Positions 2,727-22,108 of a stretch of DNA of 27,565 nt are shown one piece after another (within the stretch, counting starts at the first letter, position 1; each line of letters begins with the position of its first letter). The notes beneath the pieces are model-generated. The model saw nothing but the letters and a program-made list of their open reading frames with translations, ran no database searches and was not told the DNA's origin. The translations under genes were made by a program, and so were the position numbers. The DNA comes from a virus. The stretch is taken from positions 1 to 27,565 of IMG/VR virus record IMGVR_UViG_3300037101_000256; one strand, 5' to 3'.

Positions 2727-3359
2727 TCAGAGATCCGTCACCACATCGTTGATGCTGTTCAGATTCAGCATCGCGTCCCGAACCGCCGCGGCGATGTCCG
2801 CGCTCCGGTCCAGGAACGACCGCGCGTCCATTGCCTGCACGCTGACCGTGATTTGCGATGGGGAAGCGCCGCTCGCGGGCGCGGCCTGGCCCCCGCCCGA
2901 TCCCGAAGCGGCAGCGCCCGCCGGCGGGTTCCCCGCCCCGTCGTACGCGCGCGACGTACCCGTCTGATCGTAGTCCGCGTTGCTCAGCCCTTGCCCCGTA
3001 TCGGCCGCCTCGATATTGAGGGCCGACGGCATGGCGTACTTGGTCAGTGGCGCCGGAGCGGACGACCCGCCCCCGCCGAAGAGCCCCAACAGCCCGCCGA
3101 TCAGAGGCGCCAGGCCGAACCCGCTCTCGAGAATCAGCATGCCCGCCGATGTCCCGCCGCTCGATCCGCTGGTGGAGCTATTGCTTGAGGCGCGGACCGT
3201 GCCGGGTTGAACGGGCGGGTCCGTGTCGCCGACCTGCAATCCGCCGTAATCCGTGCCCGCCCCGCCGGCCGAATCGGCCTGCGCCGTCCCCATGGCATCG
3301 TTCAGGTTGTTCGCCAGAGTCGCGAAATCATCGAGTAGATCTTCTTGTGTGCTGGCCAT
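2727..3359 (-). CDS. Short tape-measure-like tail protein
   Basis: 210 aa. It lies directly after the frameshifted tail chaperone, where the tape measure is always found, and before the distal tail genes. Visible parts are an acidic helical N-terminus (about 1-30), a Gly/Ser/Thr-rich linker, a hydrophobic Gly-rich segment at about 74-98 (GMLILESGFGLAPLIGGLLG), another low-complexity linker and a C-terminal helical block (VSVQAMDARSFLDRSADIAAAV). It is far shorter than usual siphovirus tape measures, which have many hundreds of residues. If it is the true tape measure, the tail is very short, as in gene transfer agents. Alternatively it is a minor tail protein in a phage that has lost its tape measure. 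Confidence 0.5.
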   Translation of the reverse strand: MASTQEDLLDDFATLANNLNDAMGTAQADSAGGAGTDYGGLQVGDTDPPVQPGTVRASSNSSTSGSSGGTSAGMLILESGFGLAPLIGGLLGLFGGGGSSAPAPLTKYAMPSALNIEAADTGQGLSNADYDQTGTSRAYDGAGNPPAGAAASGSGGGQAAPASGASPSQITVSVQAMDARSFLDRSADIAAAVRDAMLNLNSINDVVTDL

Positions 3360-3678
3360 CGTTCATCTCCGCCTCAAGCGCCTTTTCCAGAACCAGGAAC
3401 GCCTCCATCCGGCGCGCATCCAACTCGGCGGCGCGTATTCCTCCCAGCCGCCGCCGGACAACGAACTCCTCCACCAACGCCAGGCTCTCGCCCGTAACGT
3501 ACGATTTCGGGCAGGTCGCGATCGCCACGCCCCCTCTCGCCCATACCGGCGGCCCGGCGGATTCCTCCGCTCCTTCGATCCACCCGCAGCGCCGCCTTTT
3601 CTCCAGGCCGGCTTTCCGGCACGCGTCGCACTTCCAACCAGCCTGGTTGGAGAATTGGAAATGGAAGGCGACCGTCAG
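3328..3678 (-). CDS. -1 frameshift extension of the tail assembly chaperone (GT-like)
   Basis: This frame has no start of its own at its 5' end. It is open from the slippery site at 3684-3678 to a TGA at 3330-3328, adding about 116 residues to the upstream 125-aa protein (fusion of about 241 aa). The extension contains a CDACRKAGLEKRRRC cysteine cluster and conserved-looking segments (AIATCPKSYVTGESLALVEEF; RRMEAFLVLEKALEAEM). This is the lambda G/GT arrangement: a short chaperone and a rarer fusion, both needed for tail assembly and usually not found in the particle. An internal ATG at 3528 could start a shorter product, but the coding-like stretch begins well before it. Confidence 0.75.
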   Translation of the reverse strand: MTVAFHFQFSNQAGWKCDACRKAGLEKRRRCGWIEGAEESAGPPVWARGGVAIATCPKSYVTGESLALVEEFVVRRRLGGIRAAELDARRMEAFLVLEKALEAEMNDGQHTRRSTR

Positions 3679-3684
3679 TTTTTT
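3633..3684 (-). promoter_or_regulatory. Programmed -1 ribosomal frameshift signal (A AAA AAC, then stop)
   Basis: On the minus strand the heptamer A AAA AAC occupies 3684-3678, in the correct phase (codons AGA AAA AAC), and is followed at once by the zero-frame TGA. A perfect 8-bp hairpin lies downstream, pairing TCCAACCA at 3633-3640 with TGGTTGGA at 3644-3651 (plus-strand bases) across a 3-base loop. The hairpin starts about 26 bases after the slip site, farther than the usual 5-9 base spacing, so it may or may not be the stimulator. Confidence 0.75.
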
Positions 3685-4052
3685 CTTTGCGCCGCGGTGA
3701 GCCCCGCCTCCGCTCGCACCGCCGCCAGCGCCTCTTGAAACAGGCTCTCGGGTCCCGCGTCCGCCAGCAGCTCCGGCGTGGCCACCGCTCCGTCTACGTT
3801 TAGACCCGCGATTCCGCGCAGCCCCCAGAGCAGATACAGCCGGCCAACCTCCGCCTGCAGCAGCGTCGCCTCCATCCGGTCTCCGGCCCGCCCGCTCGAT
3901 TCCAGAAACTCCACGCGCCGGGCTACTTCCCGCACCCGGCGCATGAGTTCCACCCGCCGGGCAAATGACATCCGCGCCACTTCGAACGTCACCCCCGGCG
4001 CCACCGCCGATTCCACCGTCTTAACGCTCTCGTAGATCATTGGTTTTGACAT
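3675..4052 (-). CDS. Tail assembly chaperone, zero-frame product (G-like)
   Basis: 125 aa (MSKPMIYESVKTVE...TAAQRKN). It lies between the tail tube gene and the tape-measure gene, the standard place for the siphovirus G chaperone. It has a beta-type N-terminus and then a long helical, arginine-rich segment (FARRVELMRRVREVARRVEFLE). Its last two codons form a slippery sequence immediately before the stop, so part of the translation should continue in the -1 frame into the next feature. The sequence identity is not recognisable alone; function comes from position and the frameshift. Confidence 0.75.
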   Translation of the reverse strand: MSKPMIYESVKTVESAVAPGVTFEVARMSFARRVELMRRVREVARRVEFLESSGRAGDRMEATLLQAEVGRLYLLWGLRGIAGLNVDGAVATPELLADAGPESLFQEALAAVRAEAGLTAAQRKN

Positions 4053-4089
4053 TTCGCCCGGCCATGCCGGCCGGCCCGCTAGTTTGTGG

Positions 4090-4109
4090 GGCAGGCGCTT
4101 CCGCCTGCC
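4090..4109. repeat. REP-like hairpin between tail tube and chaperone genes
   Basis: A perfect 8-bp inverted repeat with a 4-base loop (GGCAGGCG cttc CGCCTGCC) sits in the 121-base gap between two late genes. No T-tract follows on the minus strand, so a processing or REP-type role is more likely than termination. Confidence 0.5.
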
Positions 4110-4173
4110 AACATCTGGTTCCGCCTTCTCCGCGTCTCTGCATCTGCGTCAAACCTGGAGCGCGTGTACCGCC

Positions 4174-5349
4174 TTACCCGAAAGCCACCACGATCTCGTT
4201 GTCCAGCGTGCCCTGCGCGCGCGCCGGACGGAATTGCCACTGCAGCCGGTTGCCGCTGTCGTCGAACTCCGGCGCCACCGGGATCACGCTCTGCAGGTAT
4301 ACGCCCAGCAGTTGACCCTGCTGCGCGCCAAGCTGAAACATGACGCTGATGGGCGATTGCTGCCGCGCCGCCTGGTAGAGTCCTTGCGTCGCCGGATCGT
4401 CCATGCTGAAGAGTTCGAAAGCGGCGGTTACCGTTCGCTGGCCGGGCGATATGGCCCGCGGCAGGCTGCTTCCGAACTCCTTCTCCCGCGTATCCAGGTT
4501 GTTCTTGAGCGTGATCGTCCCGCTGGTGATCGTCAGGAACTGGGTGGGCGACGCGCCTAGCCACGCCTGGCCCATGTTCCCCGGCACGATCGAGTAATCG
4601 AAGGCCGCCAGGGACGGCTCCGCGGGGAAGCTCTGCAGCGCCCCCATCCGACCGGAGGAGAAGCTGCTGCTATCCACCACGTCCTGCGCCAGGCCGCGGA
4701 AGTGGAACTCGTGGAAATCGCCGTTGATCGAGATGCCCATCTGGTCCACCGCCGCCCCGCAGAGCAGGCGCTGCACCGCCGTCGCCGGCGACCAGTAGTC
4801 GAACAGGCTCACGCTGGGCAGCGCCGTGGCGGGCGCGTACGTCACCGCCGCCGCCACCGCGCCCCCCGTCGCCGGCGGTATGGTGAATGGCGCGTTCAAC
4901 TGCACCGTAGTGGCATCCACGATCGCCGCCGCGAATCGGATTTCGCCCCCGCACGCCACCGCCTGCCCCGGAGCGAGGTTATGGGGCGCCTGGAAGGCCA
5001 GTCTGCCGGCGGTCGTGATAGAAGCCACCGTTCCGCCCGCGAATGCCATCGGAGCGGCGCCCAATGCAGCCTGAAAGAACGGCCCGTACGACGGCCCCGG
5101 CTGGCCGCTCGGCCATGTCGTCATATACGTCTTCAGGTCGAAATCCGTGCGCCGCCGGCCGCCCGGCGGCAATCCCGCGAAGGTTCGGCTGCCCGTCTTG
5201 TCCTGGCGCTTGACGCTCTCCAGTTGCTGTGTGACCCCCAGCTTCAACGCCGGGATGCGGTTCGCCGCCGAGATGGCGCCCACCTGCCCGTAGGACTCTT
5301 CCAGCGCCGCGTAGAATCGGTTTGCGTTAGAGGAAATATAGGAGGACAT
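4174..5349 (-). CDS. Tail tube-like (major tail) protein
   Basis: 391 aa. ATG at 5349 lies 1 base after the previous stop and has AGGAG upstream; the ATG at 5370 lies inside the preceding gene. The protein is beta-rich throughout, with a central block (about 95-185; SITTAGRLAFQAPHNLAPGQAV...ATTVQLNAPF) that looks like an inserted Ig-like or adhesin domain. The C-terminal part (ISVMFQLGAQQGQLLGVYLQ...DNEIVVAF) is typical of tube strands. Its position just before the chaperone supports the major tail protein role. It is larger than many tail tube proteins, which the inserted domain would explain. Confidence 0.6.
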   Translation of the reverse strand: MSSYISSNANRFYAALEESYGQVGAISAANRIPALKLGVTQQLESVKRQDKTGSRTFAGLPPGGRRRTDFDLKTYMTTWPSGQPGPSYGPFFQAALGAAPMAFAGGTVASITTAGRLAFQAPHNLAPGQAVACGGEIRFAAAIVDATTVQLNAPFTIPPATGGAVAAAVTYAPATALPSVSLFDYWSPATAVQRLLCGAAVDQMGISINGDFHEFHFRGLAQDVVDSSSFSSGRMGALQSFPAEPSLAAFDYSIVPGNMGQAWLGASPTQFLTITSGTITLKNNLDTREKEFGSSLPRAISPGQRTVTAAFELFSMDDPATQGLYQAARQQSPISVMFQLGAQQGQLLGVYLQSVIPVAPEFDDSGNRLQWQFRPARAQGTLDNEIVVAFG

Positions 5350-5350
5350 G

Positions 5351-5851
5351 CTAGCTCCTGCCGACTTCAATGTCGAATGTGATTTTGGCCGGCTGGACGA
5401 AGTTCTTCCCGCCGTGTTTTGCCGCTCCGAACGACGCCTCGTAGGCCCCCGCGAAGAACATGCCGTCGCCCCAGTCGCCTCGCGACGCGTCCAGCATTTG
5501 CGCCACCGCGTCGGCGTACAACTCCAGCCTGCCCTGCAGTCCCTCCAGGCGGTCCTGCGAATAACGAACCTCGATCGCCATCTGCGCCGTCCCCGAGAAC
5601 TTCCGGAATTTCTCCGTCAGCTTGTTGACCAGTTTTTCGCAATACACGTTGGCGGTCGGGTATTCGGTCCCGCTGCTGCGCTCCACCAGGTCGGCGGCCG
5701 CGTTCTGCGCCCGCACCTGCGAAACCCGCCACAGCCCCGCCGCCGTCTGGTCCGGCGGCGCCAGCGCCGCGAGTTCCGCGCTCACCCCTTGCGGCGCCGT
5801 CATTCGGGCGATGACTTTGGATGTGATCGCGCTTCCGATGCGTTTGCTCAT
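5351..5851 (-). CDS. Putative tail-completion / head-tail joining protein
   Basis: 166 aa, starting MSKRIGSAITSKVIARM. The start overlaps the preceding stop (TAATG) and has AGAGGGG just upstream. Nothing in the sequence is diagnostic. The region YCEKLVNKLTEKFRKFSGTAQMAIEVRYSQDR and the C-terminal KNFVQPAKITFDIEVGRS resemble the small proteins that close the tail or join it to the head. The slot between a connector gene and the tail tube gene supports that. Function is inferred from position only. Confidence 0.5.
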   Translation of the reverse strand: MSKRIGSAITSKVIARMTAPQGVSAELAALAPPDQTAAGLWRVSQVRAQNAAADLVERSSGTEYPTANVYCEKLVNKLTEKFRKFSGTAQMAIEVRYSQDRLEGLQGRLELYADAVAQMLDASRGDWGDGMFFAGAYEASFGAAKHGGKNFVQPAKITFDIEVGRS

Positions 5852-6627
5852 TAGCCCCTCTGCAAAATGCGGGGCGCGGGCCAAAGGTAGCTCGGCGCTT
5901 GCCCCGAGCCGGCCGTCCGCCCCGCTGTGGTAAGCGCCGGCGGCTGCGTCCAACTCTGCCCTGGCGCCAGGGGGGACCCGTTTTGCAGGGTCATGCCGTC
6001 CGCCGAAACGCCTATGTACACGTTCCAGCCGGCGGCCCCCTGGGGCGCCGCCCCGGGATGCGCGCTCAGCGTACTGCCCGTGGTCGTCGTCACGGCCGGC
6101 GCCGCGCTCGCTCCCTCTTCGCCCGCGCCGTTGACCCACGCCATCGTCACATAGTAGGTTCCCGCGGCGAAAGATCCCTGCGCCGGCGCCACCGCCGGCG
6201 TCGCGGCCCGGGGCACGGGGTTCCATGCCATCCCGATTCCCAGCAGGATCAGCTTCTCCCGCGCCCACCCCGCCATTTCGTGAAACGCATCGCGCTTCCC
6301 CGCGTAGCGGTCGTTTAGTGCGTTGTTGTATGCATCCCGGTAGACCGTCTCCAGGGTGCGGAACGTGTGCCACATCTTCAAGGGAGGAGTGACCACTACG
6401 TGACGGATATTCGCATTCCCGACATAGCCCAGCGAGAGCCAGCCGAGCGGGTCCCACGGACCGGCCCGGTCCAGGAGCCCGTGCAGGTCCATTCCCAGCT
6501 CTTCTTGCGCCAGCGCCAGCTTGACCCCCAGGTCGATCCCTTCCGTGCTGGCCACATTCAGAAGCTGCGAGTCCTGCGCCGTCAGATCTTCCGTCGTGGA
6601 TATCGCGCCATCTAGGAACAGAGCCAT
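5851..6627 (-). CDS. Phage head-tail region structural protein with C-terminal Ig/Fn3-like domain
   Basis: 258 aa. The start is 6 bases after the upstream stop; no strong Shine-Dalgarno is visible, which fits translational coupling. The N-terminal ~140 residues are helical (DLGVKLALAQEELGMDLHGL; FRTLETVYRDAYNNALNDRY), as expected of a connector-type protein. Residues ~150-220 (GSFAAGTYYVTMAWVNGAGEEG...AAGWNVYIGVSADGM) look like a fibronectin-type or decoration domain. I do not recognise the family. The role as an adaptor or decoration protein is inferred from its position after the coat gene and before the tail genes. Confidence 0.45.
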   Translation of the reverse strand: MALFLDGAISTTEDLTAQDSQLLNVASTEGIDLGVKLALAQEELGMDLHGLLDRAGPWDPLGWLSLGYVGNANIRHVVVTPPLKMWHTFRTLETVYRDAYNNALNDRYAGKRDAFHEMAGWAREKLILLGIGMAWNPVPRAATPAVAPAQGSFAAGTYYVTMAWVNGAGEEGASAAPAVTTTTGSTLSAHPGAAPQGAAGWNVYIGVSADGMTLQNGSPLAPGQSWTQPPALTTAGRTAGSGQAPSYLWPAPRILQRG

Positions 6628-6633
6628 GTTCGT

Positions 6634-6960
6634 CTAGTCCTTCGCGTGCTTCCCGGGGTTCTTCAGCCGGTTCAGGTCGTCCGTTGTCAGCACCGTCAGT
6701 TGCACTTTGGCGGCGGCCACCGCCTGATCGGCCAGGCGCTTCGCCTCGATCTGTCGTTCCCGGAATTCCTGCGCTTCCTCCAGGCTCGCGCGTCGCGCCG
6801 ATCCTTCGACGATCATCTTCGCGGCCACTTGCCGCGTGACCTCGCTCGGCGTGCCCGCCCGTCCTCCGTCGCCCGTCGCCAGGCTGACGATGATCGGAAA
6901 GGGTTCTTCGATCGCCGCCGCCGCATCGTGAATATTCTGATAAAACACTCTCATGTCCAT
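6634..6960 (-). CDS. Small head-associated phage protein, unknown function
   Basis: 108 aa, MDMRVFYQNIHDAAAAIEEPFPI.... ATG at 6960 is preceded by GGAGA; the longer frame up to 7125 enters the coat-gene tail region and is rejected. The second half is helical and charged (RRASLEEAQEFRERQIEAKRLADQAVAAAK), probably a coiled coil. It is the first gene after the coat gene and could be a head-completion or decoration partner. No family is recognised. Confidence 0.5.
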   Translation of the reverse strand: MDMRVFYQNIHDAAAAIEEPFPIIVSLATGDGGRAGTPSEVTRQVAAKMIVEGSARRASLEEAQEFRERQIEAKRLADQAVAAAKVQLTVLTTDDLNRLKNPGKHAKD

Positions 6961-6993
6961 GTTTTTTCTCCGCGGGGCAGAATGAAATCCCGC

Positions 6994-7012
6994 GGCGGGT
7001 TGGCAACCCGCC
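6994..7012. repeat. Hairpin downstream of the coat gene
   Basis: A perfect 8-bp inverted repeat with a 3-base loop (GGCGGGTT ggc AACCCGCC) lies between the coat stop at 7080 and the next start at 6960. No T-run follows, so it may stabilise or process the abundant coat mRNA rather than terminate transcription. Confidence 0.4.
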
Positions 7013-7079
7013 CGGCGCCAACCGGCCCGCAAGCTTCCCACGCTGCCCCACAATCGAATCGCTCCCGGCTGTCTGGCTG

Positions 7080-7166
7080 CTACGTCTGCACCTGCACGCC
7101 CAGTATGTTCTGCAGGACGCCGCACCCGTACAGCGTGTCCACCGTGAACTGCTGCGCCAGCGTGTT
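7080..7166 (-). pseudogene. Severed 3' end of the coat protein gene
   Basis: Read on the minus strand from 7166, this encodes N-T-L-A-Q-Q-F-T-V-D-T-L-Y-G-C-G-V-L-Q-N-I-L-G-V-Q-V-Q-T and a TAG stop at 7082-7080. It has no start. Its first two residues (NT) duplicate the last genuine coat residues on the other side of the insertion. The phase is exact: joining 7166 to 23250 gives an uninterrupted coat gene of about 304 codons. In the present arrangement the fragment is not attached to a coat reading frame. Confidence 0.88.
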
Positions 7167-7185
7167 GGCTTGCCGATTACATCAC
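7144..7185. other. attL: left recombination junction of the inserted element
   Basis: Bases 7162-7166 (GTGTT) are also found at 23245-23249. The left half (7144-7161) is coat-gene sequence. The right half (7167-7185, GGCTTGCCGATTACATCAC) is element sequence, and its reverse complement matches the inner end of attR (23223-23241) at 14 of 19 positions. This symmetry about the core is what serine integrase attP sites look like. Confidence 0.8.
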
Positions 7186-7205
7186 GGATACGATATGCTG
7201 AGAAT

Positions 7206-8690
7206 ATGGAGAAGCCACGCCATGTTCTCTCACTCGTCCGGGTTTCCGGCAAACCTCAGATTGACCGAACCGGCATACCACGGCAATTGGAGACCATTGC
7301 CGACATCTGCAAAGAAGAAAACCTCACTGTTGCCAAAGGCGACCAATACCGCTTTGAAGGATTGAGCGGCGCATCGGTGGACAAGTTTCCAGAATATCTG
7401 GCGATGCTGGACCGGCTCTCAGATCCGAAAATATCAGGAATCGTGTTCAGCGAAGTCTCACGCCTGTTCCGCCCGGAATTTGCGGACCAACTTGCCATAT
7501 CAAAACCATTCCGTGTGAATGGCAAGCTCATGTGGTACGAAGAAGGCGTGTTGGATCTTCGCAGAGAACGGGACATTGGGATTTTTGTCAAGGCAGCAAT
7601 GGAGGCCGGGTCTCATCGAAAGCGCATCATCAAATGGACGCAATGGGGCCGGAATGAACGGCGGCGGCGTGGCGATTGCAGGAGCGATCCCTTACCCGAA
7701 GGCATGAAGTTCGTTCCGCATCCGAAGACCAAGGATGAACTTGTCACCGGGCATTTCGAGTACACGCACGATGTTCATTCTGACCGGGTGAAAGAAGCAT
7801 TCCGCCGTGTGCGTGCCGGTCACTCACTGAGCCAGATTGCACGTGATTTGAAGTTTGGGAAGCCTGGAAGACCCAACCCGAATGTTGTACGGAACGTGCT
7901 TCGTTCGCACTGGTGGATAGGCGAGAAAGCATCACTGCGGAAACGTGAGAACTACGGCTTGCGTGAAGATGGTACCATGTACGGCGGCTACCGGGCATTA
8001 CGCAAAGAACCGCTGATTGTCAGAGCGAAGTTCGATTGTCTTGATTGCCCAACACTGCATAAGGACGTTCATTCAGAGCCACTTGTTTCCCGTGAGGACT
8101 TTGAAGCTGTACAGAAGCTCCTTGATGCCGCCCACAAAACATGGACCCGGCAAAAGGACAGTTGGGGCACCGACGAATCACCTTTCCTTGGTCAAGGGAT
8201 TCTGTATTGTCAATGTGGGCGGAAAGTTTATACCAAACCCAACAAGCAAGGCGACAACATCAAGCTCTATTATCGTTGTTCAAGTCATAACAACCACAAT
8301 ACACCATGTGGCGCTCCACACTTCCATCAAGAAGAGATTGACGCTGAACTTCGGAAATGGGCTATGTTGAAGCTCACCAGCAGGTCATACTTAAACAGCA
8401 TCAAGCCGGTTGAGACGGTCACTGACCGGGAACTGATTCAACGCCAGATTGCAAGCCTTGAGAAAGTGAAGGCATCGCTGTATTCCAAGATTGGACGCCA
8501 CAAGGATGAAGCGATGTTGGACAAGCTCATTGATGAAAACCAATCTACGATTGATGAACTTCAAAAGGAATTGAAAGCAAAGCCAGTGAAGAAGGCAAAA
8601 CTTGATGTTGACAAGACGCTGAAAAGATTCGCAGCTTTCCCGACTTTGCCGCTTGCAGAACAGAAGAAAGCGTTTCGTGAGACCACTTAG
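7206..8690 (+). CDS. Large serine recombinase (integrase of the element)
   Basis: 494 aa from ATG at 7206; the ATG at 7170 lies inside the att arm and adds residues not typical of the fold. It has an N-terminal resolvase domain with the catalytic serine in VRVSGKPQ (Ser14) and RTGIPRQ. A Recombinase domain spans about 170-255 (YTHDVHSDRVKEAFRRV...SLSQIARDL...NVVRNVLRSHWWIG). A zinc ribbon follows with cysteines at about 335, 337, 358 and 368 (YCQCG...YYRC...PCG), then a coiled coil (RELIQRQIASLEKVKASLYSK). Length and domain order fit the integrases of phages and integrative elements, which join attP and attB through a short crossover. It should have inserted the element into the coat gene. 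Excision would need a directionality factor; the RHH proteins are possible but unproven candidates. Confidence 0.93.
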   Translation: MEKPRHVLSLVRVSGKPQIDRTGIPRQLETIADICKEENLTVAKGDQYRFEGLSGASVDKFPEYLAMLDRLSDPKISGIVFSEVSRLFRPEFADQLAISKPFRVNGKLMWYEEGVLDLRRERDIGIFVKAAMEAGSHRKRIIKWTQWGRNERRRRGDCRSDPLPEGMKFVPHPKTKDELVTGHFEYTHDVHSDRVKEAFRRVRAGHSLSQIARDLKFGKPGRPNPNVVRNVLRSHWWIGEKASLRKRENYGLREDGTMYGGYRALRKEPLIVRAKFDCLDCPTLHKDVHSEPLVSREDFEAVQKLLDAAHKTWTRQKDSWGTDESPFLGQGILYCQCGRKVYTKPNKQGDNIKLYYRCSSHNNHNTPCGAPHFHQEEIDAELRKWAMLKLTSRSYLNSIKPVETVTDRELIQRQIASLEKVKASLYSKIGRHKDEAMLDKLIDENQSTIDELQKELKAKPVKKAKLDVDKTLKRFAAFPTLPLAEQKKAFRETT

Positions 8691-8912
8691 ATGCCAAAGG
8701 TACAATCAGCAGCGTACAGCTTCATAGCTGTTTGCCAAACGAATATTTGGTCATCGTTGGCGAACACAAAGGAATCCCACGGTGGGCTTGGGACATTTGC
8801 ACTGAAAAGTGACTAGCAAGTTCGGCGTTCCCTGAACATTGGTCACGTCCGTGCCGCCCTCTCCGGTGCCGCCCGCAACGGAGCAAGGAGCACCCGCATC
8901 TTCCTCTGCCGT
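8691..8912. other. Intergenic, no feature recognised
   Basis: This stretch lies between the convergent recombinase and small-gene operon. The one minus-strand frame here (8722-8916) is Arg/Gly/Cys-rich and not protein-like. No convincing terminator is visible. Confidence 0.4.
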
Positions 8913-9209
8913 TCACGGGTCGGCAACATCCGGCTCATCAACGCCACGGCGGTCCATCTCGCACAAAATGGCGTAAAAAGCAGTTTCCGCCGCATGAATC
9001 GGACCTTGATTCGCAACGATCACCAGGAGGTCGTTGATCCAATGTGAATGGCTGTCGAGGCCGCAGACGAGTTCCAAGCCCAACTGCCGTAAAACATCCA
9101 AATAGGCGTCTTTCAGTTCGCCATCACTGAGCGCCGCCAACAGTTCGCTCCGCTCGTTATCCGACTGGAGAAGTTCGTTACAAAGGTCTTCAAGAAATTG
9201 GAGGTTCAT
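8913..9209 (-). CDS. Hypothetical protein, third gene of the small operon
   Basis: 98 aa, acidic and helical (MNLQFLEDLCNELLQSDNERSELLAAL...HSHWINDLLVIVANQGPIHAAETAFYAILCEMDRRG). Its start overlaps the stop of the upstream gene (ATGA), which supports translational coupling and a real gene. No family is recognised and no motif points to an enzyme. It has the composition of a small soluble adaptor or antitoxin-like protein. Confidence 0.55.
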   Translation of the reverse strand: MNLQFLEDLCNELLQSDNERSELLAALSDGELKDAYLDVLRQLGLELVCGLDSHSHWINDLLVIVANQGPIHAAETAFYAILCEMDRRGVDEPDVADP

Positions 9210-9430
9210 TGCGCTTCCTCATCGCCCTGGCGTCTTGCTTCGGCATCCCGCATATGGGCTTGCCAATTGCCCCACGCTTCGGTAGCTTCGTCGCCCCTAA
9301 AATGTAGTTCGCAGAAGTCTTGGCGCATCGTCCACACTTCTACCCAAGGCTTTCCATAGCGCTCAGACAAGTCAATGATGTCGATGCTGTCCGATTCGAT
9401 GTAAAACGTGTCCGTCAATTTGATGTGCAT
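9206..9430 (-). CDS. Hypothetical protein, second gene of the small operon
   Basis: 74 aa (MHIKLTDTFYIESDSIDIIDL...WGNWQAHMRDAEARRQGDEEAQ). ATG at 9430 has AGGAGAAGGG just upstream. It begins 10 bases after the RHH stop and overlaps the next gene by 4 bases. A beta-rich N-terminus is followed by a charged helix. The family is not recognised; the operon layout and strong ribosome site support expression. Confidence 0.55.
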   Translation of the reverse strand: MHIKLTDTFYIESDSIDIIDLSERYGKPWVEVWTMRQDFCELHFRGDEATEAWGNWQAHMRDAEARRQGDEEAQ

Positions 9431-9440
9431 ATCCCTTCTC

Positions 9441-9638
9441 CTACGGCATCAGCACCGCTTGTATTTCACGGCCAGCCACGATTGGAAGCTCGTGCTCCAC
9501 GTTGTACGCTAAATTTCTGGCGACGGCTTTCCGCAACCACGTTGTGCGATCCATCCGCATTGGGTGGCGGGCGCTGTCTATTCTGTGTAGAGTGTTTTCA
9601 TCGAGCCTCAGTACGATTGCTCTTCTCGCTTTCTTCAT
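9441..9638 (-). CDS. Small ribbon-helix-helix (CopG/Arc-like) protein
   Basis: 65 aa from ATG at 9638, with GGAG 9 bases upstream; an alternative start at 9668 adds 10 residues with no better signal. The pattern MKKARRAIVLRLDENTLHRIDSARHP...RTTWLRKAVARNL fits the RHH fold: a short strand for DNA contact, then two helices. It heads a three-gene operon (RHH, 74 aa, 98 aa) transcribed away from the probable structured RNA. As a DNA-binding protein it could repress its own operon, control the RNA, or act as a recombination directionality factor. The RHH call is reasonable; the role is open. Confidence 0.65.
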   Translation of the reverse strand: MKKARRAIVLRLDENTLHRIDSARHPMRMDRTTWLRKAVARNLAYNVEHELPIVAGREIQAVLMP

Positions 9639-9681
9639 GTATGTCTCCGTTGGTCGGCAACAACCCATCCCGCCAATCCTG

Positions 9682-10720
9682 ATAGCCGGGTTGGGCTATG
9701 TCCCAATGGATGTATTTAGATGTCCATGAAAAGGTATCTTCTACGGTGTGTGTTGCCGGATTCGACATGGCAACGTGCCCCGGAGTTGACAGATTTGAAA
9801 TCCGTGCGATCATAAAGTCGGACTTCGCAGTGCTCCTTTGGAACGGAGCCATCTGAGGATGTCTAAATAGAACGTGAGGATAGGAAACGGGCAGGTTCGC
9901 TGCGTGGAGATAACACGCTGGCGTCTGCGACTGTTCCAGCCTGGAGAAGTCCAGAGGGCGCATCTTGAGCCGCTGGCAAATTGGAACAGAAATGTTCCCG
10001 GCAAGAAATCCACTAAGACGAAAGGTGGGGATCGAAGTCGTGATAGTCGAGCTTACAGCGGTTGGAACCATCAGAACCCAATTAGCCTAAACCAGAGCAA
10101 TCTGGCACCTGAGTAACCGGGAGCGGAAGAAAGGGCGGCGAAGGCCGGGTAGCCTAAGAGCGAGATCCCACAACGAGTCTACGCAGCGGACGCTAAGATC
10201 AAGTTCCGACTCTCCCATGTCAGAACATGGTGGAAATGAGGAAAGCGGCAACGCCTGTACTCATTTCCATTTCAGCAACCCTGTCAGAATAATCAATAAG
10301 AATCCTGAGCCATGCGAAGGCCGAAGGCTGGTTGCGGAATTGGTTCAAGATTGGTTGAAAAGCAGTGCTTCGCACCGTTCCGGTTCCAGTTGAGACCATT
10401 TTGGTGGTGTGTAGGGATGAATACCGCTTCGCTGGAACCCAAAGGCAATGTGGATGCCATGAATAATTTTGTGAACCATGAAACCGGCAACACCAAAGGA
10501 TGCGGTAGCGAAACGAGTACCGGGCGATCAGTCCCACGTTGAAGACGCCATCCAGAAGGAGAACATGGACGGCCACACAGCAGACCGGACGAACATGATG
10601 CCGTGATTCTTGCGGCCCCGATTGCTCTGTGTGCGCCGAATGTGAAAGGTGATGGCGACCAGCCTTCGTGGGCGGTCTCCAGGCTTTCTAGCCCTTGCTC
10701 ACCTTCACCGCCGCCATCAC
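9682..10720 (+). ncRNA. Candidate large structured noncoding RNA (about 1 kb)
   Basis: No convincing gene occupies this gap on either strand, but it is dense in hairpins. A 13-bp long-range stem (9713-9725 with 9857-9869) includes two pairs that are G-U wobbles only in the plus-strand RNA. It encloses further stems (9748-9757 with 9769-9778, again with G-U pairs; 9832-9836 with 9845-9849). Stems 9983-9988/9993-9998 and 10092-10096/10101-10105 carry GAAA and GCAA (GNRA) tetraloops, also only on the plus strand. Others are 9902-9906/9914-9918, 9941-9945/9950-9954, 10215-10220/10225-10230, a perfect 10-bp stem 10231-10240/10260-10269, 10503-10507/10518-10522, and 10571-10580/10627-10637 with one bulge. 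A last 9-bp stem pairs 10649-10657 with 10712-10720. Size, density and mobile context recall large ornate RNAs (GOLLD, ROOL), but I cannot match it to any class. Exact ends are unknown. Confidence 0.6.
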
Positions 10721-12097
10721 TCAAGCCTTCTGCTGTGCCAACGCCTTCAGCCTTTTCCGTGTCATCTCCACGTACTCAGGGTTGAGTTCGATGCCGATGT
10801 ACGAACGGCCATTCTGTGCTGCCACCAGCAAAGTCGTACCCGACCCGGCGAAACAATCGAGGACGGTGCCACCGGGAGGACAACCGGCCTTCAAGCAGAG
10901 TTCGGGCAGTTCTGGCGGGAAGGTTGCAAAATGCGCCCCGTCGTAAGATCCCGGATTCATGGACCAGACGGAACGCCGGTTCTTTGTTTCTCGATTTCCC
11001 CACATCGCATCGCAGCGGTTGTTATCGTTCCGGTCTGGATTTCCTGAAGCGTGAACGTGTAGCTTCGATGACCTTGGCTCCGCTGCCGCATCCGCATCAT
11101 AGAAGTACTTCGCTGACTTCGTAAGCAGGAGAATCTGTTCGTGATTTCGGGTTGGACGATCTTTGACGGATTCGGGCATCACAGAGGGCTTGGACCATAT
11201 GATCTCAGAGCGCAGATACCAGCCGTCCGCTCTGAGTGCGAACGCCAGCATCCAAGGGATTCCAACGAGATCCTTCGGCTTAATGTCCGGGCCGAAATAG
11301 ATGCCTGACTTGTCAGGTCGTCGGATCTGGTCTCTGGATGGACGATTTCGGTTGAACTCTGGATTGCCCTGTAAGTTCGAGTGCTCTTTAGGGCGGATAC
11401 AATTGGTTCCATCGCCTTCGTGTGACTTCCCGGAACCGGCGTAGGTGTCGCCAATGTTGATCCATACAGTTCCATCAGGCGTCAGGACTCGATGAACTTC
11501 TTTGAAAACGGCAACCAGCTTTGCGATGTACTCTTCTGGTGTTGATTCCATCCCGATTTGCCCGGCGACTTCGTAGTTCCGCATCTGAAAATATGGTGGG
11601 CTGGTAACGCAGCAGTTGACCGATTCCGGCTTCAACGTCTTCAGCAGTGCAAGACAGTCTCCATGCAGAAGAGTGCCCTGGACTTTGCCGTATTTCGTGT
11701 CAGAAACGATGTGGAGCGGTTTCCGTGCCGGTTTGCCGAAGTGCTTCAACTGCCTGACGGTGCTGCGTAGGACAACCGGCGAGATCGTACCGTCTTCAAT
11801 CGACCTTTGAAATACTTTGGGCCGTGTCGAAGCCAATTGCCACGCCGCAATTAGGGTGCTGCGACTCGCCGGGAGTTTATCCAGGTTGGAGAGGATGAGA
11901 GGGCATTGCGAGAGGGAACGAATATCGGACGCCTCCTGGTAACTGAGGTCAATGCCCCACTCGCTCCACGTTGATTTCGGAAGATGAGTTCCGAACATGT
12001 TCGTGAGAGTCTGTCCCACCCATATGATGCTTTCAGGCGTGTCGGTGAGCCGGGAATTGATGGCTCTCACTAGGTCATGTTGCGAATCAGGCGACAT
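10721..12097 (-). CDS. Orphan site-specific DNA methyltransferase (beta class, N4C or N6A)
   Basis: About 458 aa from ATG at 12097, or 480 aa from 12163; neither start has a good Shine-Dalgarno. In the longer numbering, the catalytic motif TSPPY is at 187-191 and the SAM-binding motif FAGSGTT at 438-444, followed by IELNPEYVEMTRKRL. This order (catalytic before SAM motif) is the beta class; TSPPY is common in N4-cytosine enzymes but also seen in N6-adenine ones. The N-terminal ~150 residues are an extra domain with no recognised family. No matching endonuclease lies beside it, so it looks like an orphan enzyme, perhaps protecting the element from restriction or regulating it. Confidence 0.85.
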   Translation of the reverse strand: MSPDSQHDLVRAINSRLTDTPESIIWVGQTLTNMFGTHLPKSTWSEWGIDLSYQEASDIRSLSQCPLILSNLDKLPASRSTLIAAWQLASTRPKVFQRSIEDGTISPVVLRSTVRQLKHFGKPARKPLHIVSDTKYGKVQGTLLHGDCLALLKTLKPESVNCCVTSPPYFQMRNYEVAGQIGMESTPEEYIAKLVAVFKEVHRVLTPDGTVWINIGDTYAGSGKSHEGDGTNCIRPKEHSNLQGNPEFNRNRPSRDQIRRPDKSGIYFGPDIKPKDLVGIPWMLAFALRADGWYLRSEIIWSKPSVMPESVKDRPTRNHEQILLLTKSAKYFYDADAAAEPRSSKLHVHASGNPDRNDNNRCDAMWGNRETKNRRSVWSMNPGSYDGAHFATFPPELPELCLKAGCPPGGTVLDCFAGSGTTLLVAAQNGRSYIGIELNPEYVEMTRKRLKALAQQKA

Positions 12098-12100
12098 GGG

Positions 12101-12125
12101 GAAGGAAAGGCGGGGCCTTTCCTTC
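12101..12125. promoter_or_regulatory. Perfect 11-bp palindrome at the 5' end of the methyltransferase gene
   Basis: GAAGGAAAGGC (12101-12111), 3-base spacer, GCCTTTCCTTC (12115-12125). It ends 3 bases before the ATG at 12097 on the minus strand. If translation starts there, the hairpin would occlude ribosome entry; as DNA it could be an operator. It lies inside the coding frame if the upstream ATG at 12163 is used. Confidence 0.5.
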
Positions 12126-12284
12126 TTGTGGAAATCCAGGACGGATCGAAGGGCTGGTTGCATGGTCGCTGATCGCCAGCTTAACGCCGTTCGCCGTGGA
12201 GGTACATACTACGATGGTTAGCAATGCTGAGAAAAACGGCAACCTGAAATACGCAGGAAGGCGCTGCTTTGACGGGAACGCCGC

Positions 12285-12386
12285 CTACGCTTGCCCCTGC
12301 ACGATTCTGTGAATGCTGGTATGGCTGACCTTCAGTTTGGCGGCAATCGCTCTGGTGGACATCCCGCCAGCCGGACGCCGGGACAT
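12285..12386 (-). pseudogene. Helix-turn-helix remnant of a recombinase-like or regulatory protein
   Basis: 33 codons starting MSRRPAGGMSTRAIAAKLKVSHTS and ending IHRIVQGQA. The STRAIAAKLKVSHTSIHRIV segment matches the C-terminal helix-turn-helix of resolvase/invertase-type proteins. No catalytic domain lies upstream in frame, so this is probably a relic or a very small HTH protein. It lies in the 320-base gap between the methyltransferase and the tyrosine recombinase. Confidence 0.4.
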
Positions 12387-12429
12387 GCGCCACCAGCGGT
12401 GGTTTTGGATGGCTTTATAGACGCTTGTA

Positions 12430-12477
12430 CTTTGTAAGGACGAGGACTTTACAAAGCACCATAAGAAGTGTTATGAT
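12430..12477 (+). promoter_or_regulatory. Sigma70-type promoter with overlapping operator for the tyrosine recombinase
   Basis: -35 TTTACA (12448-12453), 18-base spacer, -10 TATGAT (12472-12477). A perfect 8-bp inverted repeat, CTTTGTAA (12430-12437) and TTACAAAG (12449-12456), covers the -35, as a repressor or recombinase binding site would. The -10 ends 6 bases before the ATG at 12484, so the transcript would be leaderless or nearly so. Confidence 0.55.
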
Positions 12478-12483
12478 GTATTC

Positions 12484-13356
12484 ATGACGGCTCTCGTTCC
12501 GGCTGTTTCCGCCCTAGTCCAACCCTCCACGCAAGCCGACACCGATGCTCAATTGATCGAACTTTGGCTCCACGGACGCAGCGGCAACACCCAAGCTGCC
12601 TACCAGCACGATATCGGCAAGTTCTTCAGCTTGGTTGGCAAGCCGATCCGGGAAGTCACGCTCCGGGACTTTCAAAACTTCGCTGACGCCATCGAAGGCG
12701 CAATCGGAACCAAGCGCCGGGTGATCGCCGCCGTCAAGAGCCTTTTCAGCTTTGCGCTGAAATTGGGCTACGTCAGATTCAGCGTTGCCGCCGCCGTGCG
12801 TGCGCCCAAGGCGATGGACACGCTGGCCGAGAGGATATTACCCGAAGCGAAGATTCACGAGATGATCGCCTTGACACCGGAAGGCCGGGACCGAATGCTC
12901 CTGCGGTTGCTCTACGCCACGGGCGGCAGGGTTTCCGAAATCTGCGCTACGAAGTGGCGGCATGTCCAAGCCAATGGCGACTCCGGGCAGGTCACGCTGT
13001 TTGGCAAGGGCGGAAAGACGCACGCCGTAGTCCTGCCAGCTTCGTTGTGGGCAGATCTCGTGGCGTACCGTGCTGATGCTGATGCTGATGCGCCGGTCTT
13101 CGCATCTCGCAAAGGCGGCGGGCACCTGGACCGCTCACAGGTGTTACGGATCGTTCAGCAAGCGGCCCGGAGAGCACGTATCCGGCGCAAAGTGTCGCCG
13201 CACTGGTTCCGCCATGCTCATGCTTCGCACGCAATGGACCGGGGTGCCGGGATTCATCTGGTGTGCGCCACTCTCGCCCATTCGAGCATTGCGATCACCG
13301 GGCGCTACCTTCACGCCAAGCCAACGGAAAGCTCTGCGAAATTCTTGGCGGTCTGA
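12484..13356 (+). CDS. Tyrosine recombinase (XerC/D-like integrase)
   Basis: 290 aa. A SAM-like core-binding domain (about 22-105; LIELWLHGRSGNTQAAYQHD) is followed by the catalytic domain with all key residues: Arg149 (TGGRVSEI), Lys around 175-178 (FGKGGKTH), His240 and Arg243 (HWFRHAHASH), His266 (LAHSSIAITGRY) and Tyr275. The length fits the Xer family. It cannot be the enzyme that made the coat-gene junctions, which have the serine recombinase's features. It may mobilise an inner cassette, resolve dimers, or be passenger DNA. Codons around 198-203 are a GCTGAT repeat (Ala-Asp)3. The predicted start leaves no room for a Shine-Dalgarno if the promoter above is used. Confidence 0.92.
   Translation: MTALVPAVSALVQPSTQADTDAQLIELWLHGRSGNTQAAYQHDIGKFFSLVGKPIREVTLRDFQNFADAIEGAIGTKRRVIAAVKSLFSFALKLGYVRFSVAAAVRAPKAMDTLAERILPEAKIHEMIALTPEGRDRMLLRLLYATGGRVSEICATKWRHVQANGDSGQVTLFGKGGKTHAVVLPASLWADLVAYRADADADAPVFASRKGGGHLDRSQVLRIVQQAARRARIRRKVSPHWFRHAHASHAMDRGAGIHLVCATLAHSSIAITGRYLHAKPTESSAKFLAV
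13072..13089 (+). repeat. (GCTGAT)x3 hexanucleotide repeat in the tyrosine recombinase gene
   Basis: Three tandem in-frame copies encode Ala-Asp repeats in the loop between the Lys strand and the HxxR motif. Copy changes would not shift the frame. Confidence 0.7.
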
Positions 13357-13376
13357 ACGCAATGATGGGTACGCCC

Positions 13377-13416
13377 GGAGTCCCAAAAACACAGTGTTTT
13401 TCGGAATGAGGACTCC
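13377..13416. terminator. Two-tier hairpin after the tyrosine recombinase
   Basis: The outer 7-bp stem GGAGTCC (13377-13383) / GGACTCC (13410-13416) encloses the inner palindrome AAAAACAC-a-GTGTTTTT (13385-13401). It lies about 20 bases after the stop. It could be a terminator using the inner T-run, or a recombinase-binding site, given the nearby tyrosine recombinase. Confidence 0.4.
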
Positions 13417-13590
13417 ATGCTCAAGGGTTATACTAACCGACGTACTGTTGGTGGGATCGGGAAGAATCAGTCCAGTGAAAGTTTCAACAAAGGTACTCCG
13501 GGCAAGATTCCAGGGCCGGGAATCCACAACAGTTTCGATGCGCCGAAGAATTTTCTGAAGGGGTCCTATCCCGCCAGAACTGGCATTCTG

Positions 13591-13625
13591 ATTCCGGGTC
13601 ATTTTTCGGTGCGACTACCCGGAAT
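13591..13625. promoter_or_regulatory. 9-bp inverted repeat upstream of the restriction-modification operon
   Basis: ATTCCGGGT (13591-13599) and ACCCGGAAT (13617-13625) are perfect complements separated by 17 bases, 68 bases before the RHH gene that leads hsdM. The form fits an operator for a dimeric RHH protein or an attenuating hairpin. Together with 13377-13416 it accounts for most of the gene-free stretch 13357-13692. Confidence 0.4.
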
Positions 13626-13692
13626 CGCAGTTCCCTCCGGGTTTCTGTGGGAAGCCACCAATCAACAATTGGCAAGAGGTACACTGGTGCTC

Positions 13693-13908
13693 ATGGCAAA
13701 GCGGACATCGGCATCTGAACCACCGAAGCGCCCTTACAAGACAACGGGACTTCATCTGCCAGCGGACCTATGGGAATTGCTCAACAGGCTTGCTTTTGAG
13801 CGGGCCAGGACCAAGGGCGGTAGGGCGTCAGCATCAGCGATCATCGTTGAACTGATCGAGCGCCACCGCAAAGAACTCGAAAAGGAACTGGCTTCCGCAA
13901 GCCGCTAA
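13693..13908 (+). CDS. Small RHH-type protein leading the hsd operon
   Basis: 71 aa from ATG at 13693 ([33 protein letters not shown]...[22 protein letters not shown]). The [23 protein letters not shown]...[13 protein letters not shown] pattern fits the ribbon-helix-helix fold. A longer frame from 13417 covers inverted repeats and is not protein-like. AGAGGT lies 15 bases upstream. Only 5 bases separate its stop from hsdM, so it is probably cotranscribed and may control expression of the restriction system. No toxin partner is adjacent, so an antitoxin role is unlikely. Confidence 0.7.
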
Positions 13909-13913
13909 CCGCC

Positions 13914-15464
13914 ATGCCAGCCAACACAACCGAACTCGAAAAACGCCTGTGGGGTGCCGCCGATGAACTCCGGGCCAACTCAAAGCTAAAATCTTCCGAA
14001 TACAGCGTGCCGGTGCTTGGGCTGATCTTCTTGCGCTACGCCGATCACAAGTTCACGGTGGCGAAGGCCAAGCTCACCAGCCAAGGCACGGGGCGGCGCA
14101 CCATCGGCAAAGCTGACTATCAGGCACGGGGCGTGCTCTACTTGCCGGAAGCCGCCCGGTTTTCTACGCTGCTTAATCTGCCGGAAGGTGCCGATATCGG
14201 CAAGGACATCAACGATGCGATGAAGGCCATCGAAGCAGATAACGAAGACCTGAAGGATGTTCTGCCCCGGACGTACAATCGCCTGGACAAAGAACTCCTG
14301 GTCTCGCTTCTGAAAAACTTTGCAGCCGTGCCAATGGACATCGAAGGCGATGCGTTCGGGAAGATTTACGAGTACTTCCTTGGCAAGTTTGCAATGTCGG
14401 AGGGGCAGAAGGGCGGCGAGTTCTTCACGCCTACCAGCATCGTCAAGCTGATCGTGGAAATCATCGAACCCTACCACGGACGTTTGCTGGACCCCGCATC
14501 GGGATCAGGCGGAATGTTCGTCCAATCGGCGGCATTCGTGGAGCACCACCGAAAGGCCGTCACGGACATTTCGATCTACGGCCAGGAAAAGGTTGCCGAA
14601 ACCATTCGGCTCTGCAAAATGAACCTTGCCGTTCACGGTCTCGCTGGCGACATCCGGCAAGCCGTCACGTACTACGAAGACATCCACAAGAGCGTAGGCA
14701 AGTTCGACTTCGTAATGGCAAATCCGCCATTCAACGTGGATAAGGTGGACAAGGAACGGCTGAAAGACGATCCACGTTACCCGTTCGGGATGCCGAAGAA
14801 CGACAACGCCAATTACCTGTGGATTGAAATCTTCTACTCTGCATTGAATGAGACCGGGCGGGCAGGATTCGTGATGGCGAACTCTGCCGGTGACGCACGA
14901 GGCTCCGAACTCGACATTCGCCGGAAGATGCTCGAAGACCGGGCCGTCGACGTGATGGTTTCCGTGGGGCCGAACTTCTTCTACACCGTCACGCTGCCTT
15001 GTACGTTGTGGTTCCTGGACCGGGGCAAGAAGAAGACAGGGCGCAAGGACAAAGTACTCTTCATTGATGCCCGCCATATCTTCCACCAGCTTGATCGGGC
15101 GCACCGTGATTGGACGCCGGATCAGATTGAGTTCATCGCCAACATCGTGCGGCTGTACCGTGGCGAAGCTGCGGAGGCCGACGCTGGAAGCCAGCCTTTG
15201 ATGAAGGAAAACTTTCCGAAGGGCAAGTACAGCGATGTTCTTGGACTATGCAAGGTCGCTACGCTTGCCGAGATTGAAGCGCAAGGCTGGAGCCTGAATC
15301 CGGGTCGGTACGTGGGTGTGGCGGAACGGGCACCGGATGATTTTGAATTTGCAGAACGACTGGAGGAACTGAACGAAGAACTAGAGGCGCTGAACGTAGA
15401 GGCACGGGAGTTGGAAGAGCGGATTGCGGAGAACATCGCCACGATCTTAGAGGCATCAAATTGA
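13914..15464 (+). CDS. hsdM: Type I restriction-modification methyltransferase subunit HsdM
   Basis: 516 aa. An N-terminal HsdM helical domain (about 8-155; [37 protein letters not shown]) is followed by the N6-adenine methyltransferase domain. SAM motif [11 protein letters not shown] is at about 192-202 and catalytic NPPF at 270-273. The [19 protein letters not shown] segment is characteristic of the family. The C-terminus is a coiled coil ([24 protein letters not shown]) likely to contact HsdS. With two HsdS-bound copies it methylates the bipartite recognition site; with HsdR it forms the restriction complex. Its stop overlaps the hsdS start (TGATG). All motifs are intact, so it is probably active. 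Confidence 0.96.
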
Positions 15465-16783
15465 TGCGGCCACCAACTCGCTGGCCCACGGTCCCGTTGG
15501 GAACCCTTGCGGACTTCCGCAACGGCGTCAACTACAACAAGTCGAACTTCGGGACCGGCATCAAGATGATCGGCGTGAGCGATTTCCAGGATCACGTCAG
15601 AGCCTCTTTCGATCAGCTTGAAGAGATAAACCCGGAAGGCGTTGTCCGCAAAGAACACCTGTTGCGGGACGGCGACATTCTGTTTGTCCGTTCTAATGGA
15701 AATCGTGAACTGATCGGCAGAAGCCTCTTCGTGAGCGGACTCCACGAAGATGTTACGCATTCGGCGTTCTCCATCAGATTGCGTTTTGTCTCTCCGCATT
15801 GCTGCCCACGCTTTTACGCCTATCTTTTCCGTTCCACGCTCATTCGTCAAGCTCTATCGATGTATGGCGGCGGAACGAACATCTCGAACCTCAATCAAGG
15901 GATTCTCGAACGGCTTGAGGTTCCATTACCGGCGATGCCCACTCAGAACCGTATCGCATCCATCCTGTCCGCTTACGACGATCTGATTGAGAACAACACC
16001 CGGCGCATCAAGATCCTGGAAGAGATGGCACAGATGCTCTACCGGGAGGGGTTTGTCAATTTTCGCTTTCCCGGCCACCAGAAGGTGAAGACGGTGGAAT
16101 CGGAGTTGGGGCCGATACCGGAAGGATGGAGTGCGCCGCCACTTGAACAAGTCTTGGAACACGTCATTGGTGGCGGATGGGGTCAAGACCTACGGTCAGA
16201 TGAGTGTTCGGTCCCGGCATACGTCATCAGAGGAACGGACATACCCGGCGCTAGGCATGGTGCCGTCGCCAATTGCCCACTGCGTTGGCATAGGGAATCG
16301 AACTTCAGAACGAGAAGACTTCAAGCTGGTGATCTGGTCTTTGAGGTTTCTGGCGGGAGCAAAGGACAGCCGGTAGGCCGCTCGTTGCTTGTTGGGCAGA
16401 CGCTTTTGAGCCAATGGCAAGGCGACGTGATGTGTGCGAGTTTCTGTAAGCTCTTGCGGCCCAAGAGTGGATTGTCAGCCGCCCTGTACTGCTTTCTGGT
16501 GGAAGCCTACACGAACGGAGTGATCGAAAAGTATCAAGTCCAATCGACGGGCATCTCCAATTTCAAGTTCACTGCTTTTGCGAACGAAGTGCGGATACCG
16601 TTGCCGCCGCCCACCGTCATGGCACGTTTCAGGGAACTTATTACGCCAACGCTCGACGCTGTAGCGGTTTTCGGAAAGCGCAATGCCAACCTCCGTACCA
16701 CCCGTGACTTTCTTCTCCCGAAGCTGATTTCTGGCGAAATTCCAGTCGAAGCCGCCGCCGAACTTGTGGAGCAAACTGCGTGA
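15464..16783 (+). CDS. hsdS: Type I specificity subunit HsdS
   Basis: 439 aa from ATG at 15464, overlapping the hsdM stop by one base; the TTG at 15461 is a less likely start. It has two target recognition domains: TRD1 from about residue 7 (WPTVPLGTLADFRNGVNYNK) ending with the conserved helix (TQNRIASILSAYDDLIENNTRRIKILEEMA), and TRD2 from about 210 (GWSAPPLEQVLEHVIGGGWGQD) ending with FRELITPTLDAVAV. This is full family length. It determines the bipartite sequence recognised; which sequence cannot be read from the protein. No second or inverted hsdS copy is nearby, so specificity shuffling is not evident. Confidence 0.94.
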   Translation: MRPPTRWPTVPLGTLADFRNGVNYNKSNFGTGIKMIGVSDFQDHVRASFDQLEEINPEGVVRKEHLLRDGDILFVRSNGNRELIGRSLFVSGLHEDVTHSAFSIRLRFVSPHCCPRFYAYLFRSTLIRQALSMYGGGTNISNLNQGILERLEVPLPAMPTQNRIASILSAYDDLIENNTRRIKILEEMAQMLYREGFVNFRFPGHQKVKTVESELGPIPEGWSAPPLEQVLEHVIGGGWGQDLRSDECSVPAYVIRGTDIPGARHGAVANCPLRWHRESNFRTRRLQAGDLVFEVSGGSKGQPVGRSLLVGQTLLSQWQGDVMCASFCKLLRPKSGLSAALYCFLVEAYTNGVIEKYQVQSTGISNFKFTAFANEVRIPLPPPTVMARFRELITPTLDAVAVFGKRNANLRTTRDFLLPKLISGEIPVEAAAELVEQTA

Positions 16784-19941: not shown

Positions 19942-20071
19942 CCAGACCGTATGGAAGGGGTGGCACCATGACGAACCCAAGGTGACCGGCGAAGGGCTGA
20001 AACGGTAGTGATGTGGGTGGCGTTGTCGCCGGGTTCCATTTGGAGTGTGTATCGGCTTGCCGGTGAAGACG
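19942..20071. other. Gap between convergent hsdR and OLD genes
   Basis: A 130-base spacer between two stops facing each other. I see no strong hairpin with T-run and no reading frame worth reporting. Confidence 0.4.
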
Positions 20072-22072: not shown

Positions 22073-22108
22073 ACCGGCAGTACCTCACAACGTGCGTGTG
22101 TTCCGTAA

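Follow-up and report, generated by a model that had tools for sequence, protein, structure and literature searches.

What ties a large noncoding RNA to the small genes that are read away from it? In the window, by which we mean the whole stretch of DNA analysed (the linear IMG/VR virus record IMGVR_UViG_3300037101_000256, 27,565 nt), a gene for a small RHH-fold protein heads a row of three small genes on the minus strand, and a noncoding region that probably specifies a structured RNA runs the other way. The original prediction was that the RNA, the RHH protein and the two proteins behind it could form one regulatory or defence module. Do these parts make a four-part machine, or can some of them be exchanged? 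We give about an even chance to the view that the locus is a mobile cassette of two parts, an RHH regulator and a divergent RNA, with exchangeable cargo and with the RHH protein autoregulating the control region, carried by viruses and by what seem to be mobile islands in acidobacteria; a two-part cassette is preferred to a four-part machine because the small genes behind RHH are exchangeable.

A phage accessory region and its relatives

The window carries minus-strand phage head genes at 23.2-27.6 kb (terminase, portal and major head protein), along with genes for tail and connector that lie below 6.7 kb, all confirmed with PHROGs. Between them lies an accessory region that holds a large serine recombinase (7170-8690), the three small genes and the noncoding region, and, further on, a DNA methyltransferase, a tyrosine recombinase, a type I restriction system and an OLD/AriA-like ATPase. 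The ATPase (20072-22072) has a TOPRIM match and neighbours the type I restriction system; the two are likely to be phage-carried defence genes. An accessory region between head and tail/connector genes is present both in the window (7126-22900) and in phage contig L004 (about 3000-11600), and the DNA of the two phages is 85% identical over the recombinase stretch and 64% over an adjacent stretch of a connector-type gene. The recombinase frame ends earlier in the window (8640-8700) than in its 537-aa relative in L002, and the window copy is probably truncated, since its reading frame is lost near the C-terminus. Two similar small frames (22296-22493 and 22971-23177) share the pattern DLERY...LEEHLL.C..C, the second with a weak, below-cut-off likeness to zf-HC2; they are 92% identical to L004 DNA over 180 bp, next to a head gene at 78%.

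The nearest relatives of the window are a Bryobacterales fen MAG (locus L005, in genome G001) and genomes of its family. Close relatives of the RHH gene place four loci side by side: the window, viral contig L002/L004, L005, and L017 in G005, with G001 and G005 being two genomes of one Bryobacterales family. Among 237 family genomes, close RHH matches were confined to G001 and G005, with a weak one in G016; 399 class genomes returned the same two, with weak matches in G016 and G334; and the viral contigs gave one contig. The weak matches were dropped from the count: that in G016 (24 bits) adjoins a primase-polymerase gene with no RNA-like block seen, and around that in G334 (21 bits) only open frames were seen. 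Viral counts are lower bounds because the viral-contig scans need near-exact words; the 74- and 98-aa proteins, searched singly against viral contigs, found no relative although L002 holds both, a recombinase scan returned the known contig only, and a scan with the RNA mid-domain pattern had no match. DNA searches of phage and plasmid records likewise gave no match, nor did protein searches with RHH and the 98-aa protein against phages or with the latter against plasmids.

Our sample comprises five loci only, on metagenome/MAG contigs or genomes, and co-occurrence within it may partly reflect common descent. The surroundings of the four RHH loci differ: the two phage contigs have the large serine recombinase, and the two genome contigs lack it in the stretches read. 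A role for RHH as directionality factor of that recombinase was rejected, as L005 and L017 have RHH and the recombinase is absent from their listed frames (L017 has a smaller resolvase).

The RHH gene and the exchangeable genes behind it

The first gene of the operon (9441-9638, minus strand) encodes a protein of 65 aa that is 72-94% identical in three loci, with substitutions falling mainly at third codon positions, as expected of a real gene. Its ATG stands at 9638, 5 nt downstream of a Shine-Dalgarno-like AACGGAGA (9644-9651, minus strand) that is invariant in the four loci; an alternative 75-aa reading from 9668 adds residues that are not common to the relatives. The predicted model (mean pLDDT 69) has an N-terminal stretch, helices at residues 14-27 and 31-48, and a C-terminal tail. 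Judged by this model, the protein appears to have the fold of the RHH superfamily, an N-terminal strand and two helices, the strand not being visible in the monomer model. A search of the model against the PDB gave 45 fold matches, each weak (best single E 0.79), most of which we take to be RHH proteins; they include the antitoxins AtaR, KacA, TacA, VapB12 and MazE. Curated RHH profiles gave no Pfam family for the window protein and 0 families over the 4 members, NCBIfam had none above cut-off, and PHROGs offered weak repressor matches (E 0.04-0.1).

Behind RHH come the 74-aa gene (9206-9430) and the 98-aa gene (8913-9209), both also on the minus strand. The same three genes stand in the same order and orientation in L002 and L017, which bears out the prediction of three small co-directional genes. 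Gaps of 45-75 bases had been given for the locus; the actual spacing is 10 nt from RHH to the 74-aa gene, which in turn overlaps the 98-aa gene by 4 nt, and the predicted RNA start (~9820) lies ~180 nt from the RHH ATG. Identities to the window for RHH, the 74-aa and the 98-aa protein are 72%, 37% and 56% in L002 and 72%, 81% and 64% in L017. In the 98-aa gene, too, substitutions fall mainly at third codon positions; this test covered two genes, RHH and 98, and the aligner put some non-triplet gaps in the latter. None of the three proteins has a family above cut-off in Pfam or NCBIfam. The 74-aa protein has a sub-threshold, 14-residue match to HOK_GEF in Pfam (E 0.033, 14.2 bits against a cut-off of 22), and the model of the 98-aa protein, built for 2 sequences, is all helical at middling confidence (mean pLDDT 66), with no relative in a fold search.

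What happens to these two genes elsewhere? Of 257 genomes in the order, 22 contain the 98-aa family (39 rows, 12 of them in G048 alone). Among the 30 loci fetched for this family, which span at most 3.3 kb each and include two that overlap, RHH and the control block stand at one, L029 of G005. The 74-aa family has seven matches in 5 of the 257 genomes; all seven have a 98-like row no more than about 0.85 kb away, and one of them is beside RHH. Conversely, L005 has RHH and then a 39-codon frame whose first 13 codons match the 74-aa gene save for one residue, after which unmatched genes of 82 and 99 aa with overlapping starts stand where the 98-aa gene would be. The 74- and 98-aa genes are thus, on comparison of these loci, a pair separable from RHH and the RNA.

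Several loci of the 98-aa family have neighbours worth recording. Some 98-like genes adjoin Rhs/Cdi-type tip genes, with Pfam matches to CdiA_C in L044 and to Tox-REase-7 in L033. Rhs-like frames were seen by eye beside 98-like genes in L036, L038, L052 and L056, with no Pfam match; L052 and L056 have serine recombinase pieces too, and a 74-like gene is present in L038, L044, L052 and L056.

These distributions bear on two explanations in which the small proteins are essential. In the first, the RNA, RHH and the 74- and 98-aa proteins make up a four-part functional module for regulation or defence, with the proteins binding the RNA. The three genes are tightly coupled, and all three proteins accompany the control block at three of the four RHH loci; yet L005 does without intact 74- and 98-aa genes, and 29 of the 30 loci fetched for the 98-aa family are without RHH. 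As for defence, nearby restriction genes alone point there, and PADLOC gave 0 families for the three proteins at E up to 0.1. We therefore consider this module very unlikely. Of the unit originally proposed, the pairing of RNA and RHH holds up, in that the block is present at four of four RHH loci in a small sample, and the inclusion of the 74- and 98-aa proteins does not. In the second explanation, the locus is a type II toxin-antitoxin system, with RHH as antitoxin and the 74- or 98-aa protein as toxin. The RHH fold with its tail, the antitoxins among the PDB matches, the small coupled genes and the Hok/Gef-like stretch of the 74-aa protein all fit; set against them, no toxin family is above cut-off for the 74- and 98-aa proteins in Pfam or NCBIfam, no PHROGs or PADLOC match of theirs has a toxin name, and RHH and its supposed partners occur apart in L005 and in those 29 loci. 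With no fixed partner, the genes behind RHH being replaced at one of the four RHH loci, a type II system seems more improbable still.

The divergent control region and its predicted RNA

Upstream of RHH, a noncoding block of ~240 bp (9639-9880), devoid of codon periodicity, is common to all four RHH loci. Its identity is 75-82% in the four pairs measured, and 127 of 245 alignment columns are invariant in the four loci; similarity to the window ends near 9880 in L002 and L017 and near 9941 in L005. Among invariant runs, the top five in length are GATGTATTTAGA (site A), TGCGATCAT (the -10), TCTCCGTT, TTGACAGA (the -35) and GATGTCTA (site B), of which TCTCCGTT is the RHH Shine-Dalgarno read on the opposite strand. 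At 9786-9813 on the plus strand, TTGACA, a 16-bp spacing and TGCGATCAT (TGC-GATCAT) form a predicted extended -10 promoter that faces the RNA and has 10 of 12 consensus bases. All 15 of its columns are invariant in the four loci, compared with 5 of 13 spacer columns, a placement reached in 125 of 20000 column shuffles in a test made after the site was seen. Promoter-like sites as such are not rare in the region (3 found, 1.2 in shuffles).

Two outward-facing GGATGTCTAWATA-type sites flank this promoter. Site A, GGACATCTAAATA in the window and GGATGTCTAAATA in L005 and L017, lies at 9713-9725 on the minus strand and faces the operon; site B, GGATGTCTAAATA, lies at 9857-9869 on the plus strand and faces the RNA. 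Their spacing is 144, 147, 144 and 145 bp in the window, L002, L005 and L017. The operon-side site has 2 mismatches in the window and in L002, and the RNA-side site has none in the window and 1 in L005. Allowing at most 2 mismatches, the pattern matches four times in the window, a number that 0 of 100 shuffles reach; the two unrelated matches, each with 2 mismatches, are at 12407 and 25623. Of 257 order genomes, 2 carry the promoter-plus-site pattern, both with a close RHH; among viral contigs it is present in L004 only, where RHH is also present. Site A is a candidate RHH operator and/or promoter element of the operon, and sites A and B could instead serve as promoter elements or be bound by some other protein. 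The original proposal called for a co-occurrence check in other genomes; the 74- and 98-aa genes were found to occur independently, as was one RNA domain, described below, but RHH with its promoter block was not.

Could the block be part of the RNA itself? Its fold over four loci has a z of -2.3 on the plus strand and -1.0 on the minus strand, pairwise folds give little signal and do not consistently favour plus, and in the window alone the minus strand is ahead (-2.2, with -1.2 on plus). Because pair covariation over the four loci is near zero, the block is better read as control DNA, and an RNA domain here was rejected despite the plus-strand fold.

The RNA itself is predicted to run on the plus strand from ~9820, a fold- and comparison-based assignment that reaches the end of a mid domain at 10287. 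The mid domain (9944-10287), which is the best-supported part of the RNA, is 82% identical to a stretch of genome G226. In G226 we noted by eye TTGACA-16-TATGAT ahead of the RNA mid domain; an excisionase-like gene (PHROGs E 5e-8) is divergent from the domain, and the family-genome search gave no RHH match there. The consensus fold of the two mid domains has a z of -2.1 on plus and -0.5 on minus, and a GAAA hairpin in it contains one compensated pair as well as one that is preserved as G-U; over the whole domain, compensated pairs number 3 on plus and 4 on minus and do not tell the strands apart. A second conserved noncoding block of ~295 bp (10352-10645), 80% identical to L005 1416-1711, is a putative further part of the RNA, with a z of 0.1 on plus and -3.0 on minus. 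No plus-strand terminator-like site was found near 10645-10720.

Is the plus strand truly the favoured one? Over 9669-10640, the z is -2.2 on plus, where 0 of 20 shuffles do as well, and -1.2 on minus, where 3 of 20 do. Beyond the control block, plus and minus values, from single sequences with 60 dinucleotide shuffles per strand, are -1.5 and -0.8 for the window mid part, -3.7 and -3.4 for L005, -3.4 and -2.4 for L002, -2.5 and -1.5 for L017, and -1.2 and +0.2 for G226, such that plus is the more extreme in five of five loci, with minus marked too in L005 and L002. An alignment of four loci (the window, L019, L005 and L002; 40 shuffles in each of two modes) gave z values of -4.0 and -5.8 on plus and -1.7 and -2.6 on minus; it is a rough alignment, because identity between RNA bodies is 37-51% for all pairs other than window/L019. 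Counted over the five loci, candidate GNRA hairpins (4-bp stems) come to 10 on plus and 0 on minus, with shuffle averages of 3.9 and 2.0, respectively, and 4 of 500 plus-strand shuffles reaching 10. Together with the promoter, this strand bias supports, by sequence comparison, the prediction that the operon is divergent from the RNA.

For the relatedness of the RNA bodies, only ranking against shuffles was used, since the scoring is too permissive and gives long alignments even in shuffles. By this ranking, 1 of 200 shuffles is as good for window/L002 and 0 of 200 for the mid parts of the window and L005; the figures, again of 200, are 22 for L005/L002, 14 for L019/L005 and 30 for L019/L002. 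The L017 stretch has no detectable relation to the others (92-145 of 200 shuffles as good in four pairs). A decayed gene was rejected as the origin of the RNA region, which lacks codon periodicity and has gaps that are not in threes, unlike RHH and the 98-aa gene. DNA matches of 20-32 nt in G072, G024, G167 and G055 were treated as chance, and the G072 stretch (L024) was left out of the comparisons. Rfam gave only HOTTIP_2, a lncRNA, for window 8700-10800, taken for chance at 16 bits against a cut-off of 80, and only a tRNA elsewhere in L017 for L019, L005 and L017; no group I or group II intron or other Rfam RNA matched.

A quite different reading would make the noncoding region a DNA site (an origin, att or oriT) or a long minus-strand leader of the RHH operon. 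In its favour, proteins of the RHH type are also employed at oriT and partition sites, inverted repeats are many, and the minus strand folds well in the 3' block and in some other parts. What speaks against this reading is the conserved plus-strand promoter, the restriction of GNRA hairpins to plus, and z values that are more extreme on plus for the mid parts of five loci and for the four-locus alignment; we regard it as very improbable. Somewhat more weight, while still unlikely, goes to the idea that RNA and RHH are adjacent simply through the descent of all loci from a single mobile island, with RNA and operon acting independently. The loci are few and every one has a tie to Bryobacterales, G226 has the mid domain and no RHH, and the 74- and 98-aa genes are clearly separable. 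Inheritance alone sits less well, however, with a block that keeps its promoter, spacing and sites while its surroundings differ and the RNA bodies retain so little identity.

The cassette model and known systems

We return to the two-part cassette. Its head, composed of the RHH gene, the control block and the RNA promoter, appears from the comparison to be kept together, with an RNA body that drifts fast and tail genes that are exchanged. We infer that the RNA is transcribed and acts in the cell, and that the RHH protein binds the sites and represses. In molecular terms, the fixed head would be an RHH gene and, on the opposite strand, a sigma-70-type extended -10 promoter driving a large, quickly diverging structured RNA, the two sharing the ~240-bp control region with its outward site pair. 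An RHH dimer would most likely bind the paired sites, possibly looping the DNA, and binding would repress the RNA promoter as well as the dimer's own operon. The cargo would be small, translationally coupled genes, the 74- and 98-aa pair here and other genes in L005, swapped by recombination and not needed by the head. The RNA may have a regulatory or a structural role in the element.

How does this arrangement compare with known systems? Arc/CopG/ParG-type RHH regulators and RHH antitoxins are small autoregulators with repeated operators, and the window protein is like them in its modelled fold, its small autoregulator-like gene and the repeated operator-like sites nearby. It differs from them in having no Pfam, NCBIfam or PADLOC match above cut-off, with weak PHROGs matches, and in that, if the model holds, it controls a large divergent RNA. 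In type III toxin-antitoxin systems (ToxIN-like), an antitoxin RNA made of tandem repeats precedes the gene for an endoribonuclease toxin on the same strand. Our locus resembles them as an RNA-protein locus on mobile elements, but 8700-10800 has no tandem repeats, no toxin family is above cut-off and the RNA is divergent. The large RNAs GOLLD and ROOL are often located by tRNA genes, whereas no tRNA was found in the 27.6-kb window. Like them, ours would be a large folded noncoding RNA of phages or prophages, and it has a less conserved part, as GOLLD does (PMC12286853). It is set apart by the absence of an Rfam match (E up to 5 for window 8700-10800 and up to 2 for L019, L005 and L017) and by the adjoining divergent RHH gene. 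Among the titles and abstract openings surveyed, which cover part of the matching literature, no unit of RHH and divergent RNA is named.

A bolder proposal, to which we assign a low probability, is that these loci represent a new class of Acidobacteriota mobile-element unit in which a large, structured, fast-evolving and promoter-driven RNA is paired divergently with a small DNA-binding regulator (RHH, or the excisionase-like HTH protein of G226), the RNA being the working product and the regulator timing its release. Such an RNA might have, for example, an anti-host, superinfection or GOLLD/ROOL-like RNA-cage function.

To our knowledge, the large folded phage RNAs GOLLD and ROOL have no described function. 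Where such a family has a conserved promoter and a defined regulator beside it, the timing of RNA synthesis and the role of the RNA could be addressed directly. A second pair in need of explanation, the 74- and 98-aa genes, now has a neighbourhood, and the 98-aa family is spread over a bacterial order.
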